From the NCBI RefSeq assembly GCF_025336525.1, contig NZ_JAOCZP010000002.1, forward strand, positions 186,001 through 250,000: 64,000 bases of DNA, written 5' to 3'. The DNA comes from Chelativorans salis (GTDB taxonomy: Bacteria > Pseudomonadota > Alphaproteobacteria > Rhizobiales > Rhizobiaceae). Positions 33,337-33,519 of this stretch are shown here, in pieces. A program made the position numbers and the translations under genes. The notes under the pieces were generated by a model. That model was not told where the DNA came from. It ran no database searches and was given only the letters and a program-made list of their open reading frames with translations. Numbering within the stretch: the first letter of the stretch is position 1; each line of letters opens with the position of its first letter.

Positions 33337-33365
33337 TTGCGTGGTTCCACCGCCTCGGCTATCAA
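33337..33365 (+). promoter_or_regulatory. Predicted promoter of the leuA leader
   Basis: -35 TTGCGT (33337-33342), 17-bp spacer, -10 TATCAA (33360-33365), then six bases to the leader ATG at 33372. The spacing is the same as at trpL (TTGCGC, 17, TATGGA, 6, ATG), so a leaderless transcript is predicted. Confidence 0.45.
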
Positions 33366-33371
33366 AAACCC

Positions 33372-33491
33372 ATGTTCAATATCGAGCGCACAAGCTATTT
33401 CTGCCGGTTCGCGTTCCGCGGCGCGGCCACGTATGCGCTCGTTTCCAGCCTGCTGCTTCTCGGCCTTATCGGCGATCGCCGGGTCCGCTGA
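33372..33491 (+). CDS. Putative leuA leader peptide (leucine-rich, 39 aa)
   Basis: The ORF begins MFNIERTSYF and ends GLIGDRRVR; codons 23-32 read LVSSLLLLGL, with six Leu codons (four in a row, 33450-33461). No Shine-Dalgarno precedes the ATG. The stop (33489-33491) lies inside a stem-loop that can refold with a second hairpin, the layout of a ribosome-dependent attenuator for the leuA gene 127 bp downstream. Alternatively it is a real small membrane protein, since the Leu run could span a membrane, or a chance frame. Too short for normal gene calling. Confidence 0.5.
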   Translation: MFNIERTSYFCRFAFRGAATYALVSSLLLLGLIGDRRVR

Positions 33492-33519
33492 AGGGGCGCC
33501 CGGCGATCGGTGTCGCCGG
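33474..33519 (+). promoter_or_regulatory. Two mutually exclusive stem-loops of the putative leuA attenuator
   Basis: Hairpin A: GATCGCCGGG (33474-33483) pairs with CCCGGCGATC (33499-33508), 10 bp perfect, 15-nt loop. Hairpin B: CCGGCGA (33500-33506) pairs with TCGCCGG (33513-33519), 7 bp perfect, 6-nt loop. The shared segment 33500-33506 can be in only one of them. A ribosome stalled on the Leu codons would leave A free to form; a ribosome at the stop would block A and favour B. No T-run follows B at once, which weakens the terminator reading. Confidence 0.5.

Follow-up and report, generated by a model that had tools for sequence, protein, structure and literature searches.

The window analyzed here is a stretch of 64,000 nucleotides from the 5.66-Mb genome of Chelativorans salis (contig NZ_JAOCZP010000002.1, positions 186,001 to 250,000); all features described below lie on its forward strand. 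It contains leuA (33618..35330, ATG at 33618), which is preceded by a GGAG Shine-Dalgarno sequence (33606..33609) and encodes a 2-isopropylmalate synthase of the leuA_yeast type: the match to TIGR00970 reaches 772.5 bits, above the cut-off, in agreement with the identity given to this gene in a preliminary description of the region. A 39-codon leucine leader ORF, probably leaderless, lies upstream (33372..33491, TGA at 33489-33491; sequence MFNIERTSYFCRFAFRGAATYALVSSLLLLGLIGDRRVR) and is separated from leuA by 126 nt. Six Leu codons are found among its codons 23-32 (33438..33467), i.e. codon 23, codons 27-30 (CTG CTG CTT CTC, 33450-33461) and codon 32, a CTT (33465-33467) followed by A. Next to this run, GATCGCCGGG (33474-33483) pairs perfectly with CCCGGCGATC (33499-33508), forming a hairpin (helix A) whose loop includes the TGA. 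Both the Leu-rich ORF and this 10-bp hairpin with the stop codon in its loop had been noticed beforehand; the coordinates of the ORF hold, and the hairpin can be extended by one pair (C33473:G33509). The case for a leader rests on comparison; by its folding energy, 33372-33640 does not differ from shuffles of the same composition (z = -0.26; 72 of 200 shuffles fold equally well or better). Rfam 15 gave no match at gathering score in 33300-33700, and no further copy of the element was found in its own genome at E<0.1. Judged by the sequence comparisons below, the presence of a Leu leader and hairpin before leuA is confirmed as real and far from chance.

The distribution of the element in the family was analyzed. 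The leuA gene is present in all 16 genomes of the genus and in 145 of the 151 genomes sampled from the family. A search at E<=1 detected the leader peptide in 20 of 41 relatives; within the genus it is present in 15 of the 16 genomes, counting that of the window. In the family, 126 distinct loci were read upstream of leuA, and 125 of them, all but L112, carry a Leu-rich ORF that ends in this hairpin. The set of 125 excludes L112, which lacks a recognizable leader, and L137, which comes from the same genome as L100; removal of the duplicates L058 and L076 gave the set of 123 used for most counts below. Throughout, the finder thresholds were set by the analyst, the shuffles of our own scripts are mononucleotide shuffles, and the starts of leuA were guessed from ATG and Shine-Dalgarno sequence.

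Alignment of the 123 distinct sequences revealed a second helix, overlooked in the preliminary description. In this helix B, AGGGGC (B1, 33492..33497), located right behind the stop codon and within the loop of helix A, pairs with GCTCCT (B2, 33532..33537). Helix A being composed of A1 (33473..33483), which encodes the end of the peptide, and A2 (33499..33509), the arms follow in the order A1-B1-A2-B2, and B2 completes an H-type pseudoknot. Pairing is kept in 99.5% of the alignment cells of helix A, with both-side changes in 7 of 11 pairs, and in 99.1% of those of helix B, with both-side changes in 4 of 6; for the two helices jointly the values are 99.3% and 11 of 17. Sliding the partner by 1-3 columns lowers pairing to 32-54%. 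None of 500 shuffles matched A plus B on any of five measures, a result to be read with the kinship of the sequences in mind, as descent alone can lift related sequences above shuffles. Part of helix A is coding, so that some of its conservation could be at the protein level. At column pair 32:69 the pairs are A-U (80), G-C (33) and G-U (8) as the peptide switches from Asp to Gly; compensation while the residue changes indicates that the pairing is held, and not the residue. The loop from A1 to B1 measures 7 or 8 nt in 103 of the 123 loci, and B2 starts 12-37 nt past A2 in the family. On the strength of this covariation, we consider that the predicted pseudoknot leader is real and conserved.

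A competing fold had also been proposed for the window: segment C (TCGCCGG, 33513..33519) pairs over 7 bp with CCGGCGA (33500-33506) of A2. Across the 123 loci, pairing of A2 with the A2-B2 linker has a mean energy of -14.95 kcal/mol, compared to -10.60 for shuffled and -14.18 for between-species combinations. The competitor is therefore plausible, as A2 pairs with the linker better than shuffles do, while only 55 of the 123 loci stand out singly (shuffle fraction <=0.05). When A1 is masked, the region from the stop codon to B2 folds into a single hairpin closed by helix B in 119 of the 123 loci (mean -23.0 kcal/mol). Folding predictions thus indicate two exclusive folds: the pseudoknot A+B, or pairing of A2 and C, whether B forms or not. 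As in an attenuator, these exclusive structures overlap the end of the ORF: A1:A2 covaries, and A2:C as a set lies above shuffles. Pairing between the Leu run and B1 was also considered. Its energy (-10.94 kcal/mol) is better than that of shuffles (-8.39), yet between-species combinations reach -11.15, and this candidate was rejected for want of a species-specific gain.

With codons numbered backwards from the stop, CTT occupies position -8 in 122 of 123 loci, and Leu is found at -10 in 120, at -11 in 110, at -12 in 115 and at -13 in 95; third positions vary at codons -11 to -13. The last 20 codons hold 4-7 Leu in all 123 leaders. The preliminary description had set a comparison with relatives as the test that could refute the leader; the leader withstands it, as the Leu run is kept while its third positions vary, and helix A shows covariation. 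Codon choice is strongly biased: CTT accounts for 387 of the 624 Leu codons in the last 15 leader codons versus 108 of 3618 in 97 leuA genes, and CTT and CTC together account for 547 of 624 versus 932 of 3618. By the decoding rules, tRNA-Leu(GAG) would read both CTT and CTC, so the leader may measure that isoacceptor; a near-invariant CUU that makes up 3% of Leu codons in leuA suggests the reading of one leucine isoacceptor. Sensing of leucine through the position of the ribosome is likely. A peptide acting in trans is considered unlikely, given a variable N-terminal half and a C-terminal end whose residues follow the changes of the helix.

The start of the leader was examined next to its upstream region. 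In the window, a -35 element (TTGCGT, 33337..33342) and a -10 element (TATCAA, 33360..33365), separated by a 17-nt spacer, score 7/12 as a pair, and the -10 element lies 6 nt upstream of the leader ATG. Pairs scoring at least 7/12 are found in 107 of the 123 family loci compared to 10.6 expected from shuffled upstream DNA, a difference that includes a slight advantage given to native sequences by picking the best in-frame ATG. In 94 of these 107 loci the ATG lies 6-7 nt past the -10 element, and an SD-like 4-mer precedes the leader ATG in only 10 of 123. From this geometry the ORF is probably leaderless, with the 5' end of the transcript at the ATG. The leaderless start put forward earlier for the window is thus favoured by the family as a whole; in the window itself the pair scores only 7/12, and a stricter consensus scan (9/12) listed no promoter in 32900-34100.

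To avoid picking close relatives only, we also considered a completion set comprising 36 of the 38 remaining family matches, two G056 pieces at contig ends being left out. The automatic finder recovered leader and pseudoknot in 32 of the 36 loci, 30 of them at a shuffle fraction <=0.05. The exceptions are L418, in which no pseudoknot was found, and L426, L428 and L438, which were missed; by eye, the hairpin is visible in L426 and L438, and in a degenerate form in L428. The latter belongs to a reduced genome of 1.1 Mb (G021) in which the hairpin is partly kept and the finder saw no leader ORF; the leader appears degenerate there. Two second copies of leuA (60% and 62% identical) are included in this set, one with the element recovered by the finder (L439), the other with the hairpin visible by eye (L438). 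A DNA-pattern scan of named genomes retrieved at least 119 stretches. In all 114 that could be tested leuA lies within 900 nt; for the remaining five, no more than 206 nt of stored DNA follow. Among the 80 titled pattern matches listed, all come from organisms that we take to be Hyphomicrobiales, bar one Dechloromonas metagenome-assembled genome (L187). This contig, labelled Dechloromonas aromatica, carries the element and a leuA that is 90.6% identical to that of the window over the part compared; it is probably misbinned.

These elements can be assembled into a ribosome-gated pseudoknot leader gauging charged leucyl-tRNA for leuA, a reading to which we give a probability of about 0.58. A ribosome covers about 12-13 nt past the first base of its A-site codon. 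Placed on the leader coordinates, a ribosome that stalls between codons -13 and -10 should leave A1 and B1 free, at codon -8 it should touch the first pairs of helix A, and at the stop codon it should cover all of A1 and B1, so that ribosome position could gate both helices at once. Transcription would begin at the ATG of the Leu-rich ORF, which would be leaderless. Under leucine shortage, the leading ribosome would stall at codons -13 to -10, at least 14 nt separating the waiting codon from helix A; A1:A2 would form, the looped B1 would pair with B2, the H-type pseudoknot would fold and leuA would be on. When leucine is plentiful, the ribosome would get to the stop codon and its footprint would hide A1 and B1; A2 would then pair with C, no pseudoknot would form, and B2 would be exposed along with the weakly paired stretch that follows. 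Transcription would then stop ahead of leuA, most likely through Rho. In this scheme, the stalling and the direction of regulation are inferred. If correct, it adds a covariation-supported pseudoknot to the ribosome-mediated control of an amino acid gene, in a family to which laboratory strains belong, and poses the question of how a leader with no conserved terminator turns leuA off.

The output step was considered in the light of several explanations. In classical attenuation, as the geometry had originally been interpreted, helix A would act as antiterminator, and the nested B+C hairpin or the 7-bp hairpin as an intrinsic terminator devoid of a U-run. The nested hairpin does close in 119 loci, as seen above, and two loci of one genus (L113 and L433) have a five-T run that starts at the last base of B2 and so takes in the edge of helix B (GCCTCTTTTT); the lineage of these two loci may have gained a terminator. 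The family as a whole does not follow: a run of at least four T past B2 is found in only 4 of 123 loci, so that the missing T-run, already flagged as the main weak point of the attenuator reading, turns out to be the rule. Terminator-like sites between leader and leuA number 5 in 123 family loci versus 7.2 expected in shuffles, the window contains none, and the class set described below has 15 in 108 regions versus 11.5 expected. With neither a conserved T-run nor an excess of terminators, the end point of classical attenuation was abandoned for the family, and we regard this explanation as improbable. Somewhat better placed, while still unlikely, is a translational version in which, leucine being plentiful, the ribosome-binding site (RBS) of leuA is masked by the freed B2 (GCUCCUU) or by some other arm. 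B2 is complementary to a Shine-Dalgarno sequence and resembles an anti-Shine-Dalgarno, and in the family formation of the pseudoknot leaves the RBS slightly more open (0.537 versus 0.472; 43 of the 123 loci differ by >0.1 and 4 by <-0.1), an effect to which extra upstream sequence may contribute trivially by reducing openness. Against it, the RBS of the window itself is not more open in the pseudoknot state (0.420 versus 0.441), and the pairing of B2 with the Shine-Dalgarno of leuA gains hardly anything within species (-10.23) compared to between species (-9.98). More generally, none of 15 leader segments shows a clear RBS-specific pairing, the largest mean gain being 0.59 kcal/mol, and masking of the RBS by B2, by the Leu run or by any other of these segments was set aside as lacking clear species-specific pairing.

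A protein- or metabolite-binding RNA element, the ORF being incidental to sensing, would fit the conservation of a sequence with no complementary partner: in the class set (L296-L403), the heptamer CGACTTA, read in frame as CTN-CGA-CTT-A, is found 97 times, spread over 66 of the 108 regions, versus 2.7 expected, and its complement TAAGTCG occurs once versus 1.6 expected. The small number of Leu codons in some class elements lying near leuA points the same way. The family, which keeps mainly the CTT-A part of this motif, argues the opposite, as it preserves the Leu run, the reading frame, the position of the stop and the bias for a rare codon, and we judge a binding element the least probable of the explanations considered. 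Returning to the ribosome-gated pseudoknot, Rho-dependent termination would be its most likely means of shutting off leuA, which we propose with low certainty. The 30 nt that follow B2 (33538..33567 in the window) are a possible Rho loading region, faintly suggested by base composition and weak pairing: in the family, C amounts to 0.280 and G to 0.165, C exceeds G in the first 15 nt in 111 of 123 loci and in the next 15 nt in 51, the first half being C-rich and G-poor, and the unpaired fraction is 0.51-0.58 versus 0.33-0.38 further on. Two points count against the proposal: the C-rich part spans only about 15 nt, which is short for a Rho site, and the output step bears no conserved signature, neither a terminator nor an RBS-specific pairing. 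Ribosome-set access of Rho is known from tnaC and mgtL, leader-controlled Rho-dependent attenuators in which the position of the ribosome on the leader ORF decides whether Rho gains access. The likeness concerns this principle; in the leuA leader, Rho is suggested by the composition and weak pairing just given.

The leader can be compared to other known systems. The attenuator of the enteric leu operon has a leader peptide with a Leu run, competing stems, an intrinsic terminator and a start with a Shine-Dalgarno sequence. The Leu run and the competing stems are alike in both; the intrinsic terminator and the SD-dependent start are where the enteric system differs. Closer in plan is the actinobacterial LEU element, which, according to passages of Seliverstov et al. 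(2005, PMC1262725), lies before leuA and associates an ORF carrying a Leu run, a pseudoknot and an alternative hairpin, the other parts of an attenuator being missing. In the same passages its authors consider classical attenuation unlikely and propose a protein binder, and cite mutations of the Leu codons in the comparable Streptomyces leader that did not give classical attenuation (PMC1262725). The leader described here shares with it, as far as these passages go, the position before leuA, the Leu-run ORF and the pseudoknot. The base stem of the LEU element is described there as pairing the Leu run with the Shine-Dalgarno of leuA (PMC1262725); in our loci the corresponding pairing has energies of -13.51 kcal/mol (native), -13.07 (swapped between species) and -12.10 (shuffled). 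When 14 control genomes were compared to the leuA_yeast model, only Corynebacterium glutamicum passed the cut-off, as does the leuA of the window. The likeness in plan is close, but with a base-stem pairing barely better than that between species we do not file the leader as a LEU element. The leuA pseudoknot leader of Actinobacteria, itself unexplained, could be worked out in this second lineage as well.

A leaderless amino acid leader is real in a relative: in Sinorhizobium meliloti, the trpL ORF is reported, in the passages concerned, to start at the first base of its transcript (PMC7298713, PMC10117765). Both are leader ORFs of amino acid genes, and the leuA element occurs in the same genus (L210, L225). 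As described in these passages, trpL has a terminator, release of a small RNA and a peptide of 14 aa, which the leuA leader does not share, and no pseudoknot appears in them. The main text of the S. meliloti small-proteome paper does not contain leuA. In the full-text literature, surveyed by titles and the beginnings of abstracts, we found no paper describing a leuA leader or a pseudoknot upstream of this gene for the family. A survey by Vitreschak et al. in 2004 may have predicted leuA leaders in Alphaproteobacteria, which makes the novelty of the leader peptide itself uncertain.

The range of the element beyond the family was then considered. A family-trained model (R1) run on 199 genomes of the order gave strong scores (E<1e-15) in G341, whose element is likewise followed by leuA, and in six genomes of the family; outside the family it mostly failed to detect the element. 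Weak matches at the class level (L290, L291 and L295) also precede leuA, which led to a systematic look at the leuA_yeast genes of the class. Such genes were found in 110 of 385 genomes at E<=1e-130, and 108 of the 109 other upstream regions were kept, G698 being left out because its match begins at a contig end. Two types of leader were distinguished in this class set by script rules and by the analyst's reading, as were the tandem pairs. The short leader, mostly of 11-20 aa and often ending with LRL.xPAL, lies about 200-340 nt before leuA in most loci. A TTGAC-type promoter scores at least 7 in 34 of 40 (a count made with no shuffled control), with the ATG 6-7 nt past the -10 element in 21 of these 34, and a Shine-Dalgarno sequence is present in 2 of 40. 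The proximal leader often ends with GGRRA, GGCRV or GGYRP and lies about 70-180 nt before leuA. A pseudoknot made of other letters was found at a shuffle fraction <=0.05 in 14 of 22 hand-picked proximal leaders; in the other 8 it was no better than shuffles, none being found in one of them. In a blind run on the best leader of each locus, both kinds mixed, 61 solutions were obtained, 19 of them at <=0.05.

Nineteen loci had two candidate leaders, of which 12 were read as tandem leaders, the short type standing well ahead of another that is close to leuA (L299, L301, L318, L332, L335, L336, L340, L372, L374, L379, L381 and L382). In these tandem loci the distal leader lies behind a promoter-like site; the proximal ORF lacks an ATG or reaches a promoter score of only 2-6, has a Shine-Dalgarno sequence in one case (L372), and carries the hairpin and sometimes a pseudoknot. 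A looser motif search found at least two motif-plus-stop places in 42 of 108 regions, some of which are surely due to chance. A wider interpretation, which we put forward as tentative and hold rather doubtful, is that of a leuA leader common to the Alphaproteobacteria, in which a ribosome waiting at a near-invariant CUU-A would gate an H-type pseudoknot with no intrinsic terminator. It would be possible kin of the LEU element, travel with the yeast-type leuA, and occur in tandem in some families behind one leaderless start. If true, it would represent a separate kind of attenuator, whose waiting site outside the family would be CGACUUA. In three proximal elements (L315, L316 and L317) the motif is kept, with leaders ending in ARLIGGR or PRLIGGR, and 1-2 Leu are found in the 11 residues shown; with so few Leu, something besides the Leu run may take part in sensing. 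Finally, in two other families of the order (L138-L143), a Leu-rich ORF ending with LLLSRP or LLLSCP can be recognized by eye before leuA. Its hairpin is different and takes in the stop codon, with CCCCTGA:TCAGGGG seen by eye in L138, L140 and L141.
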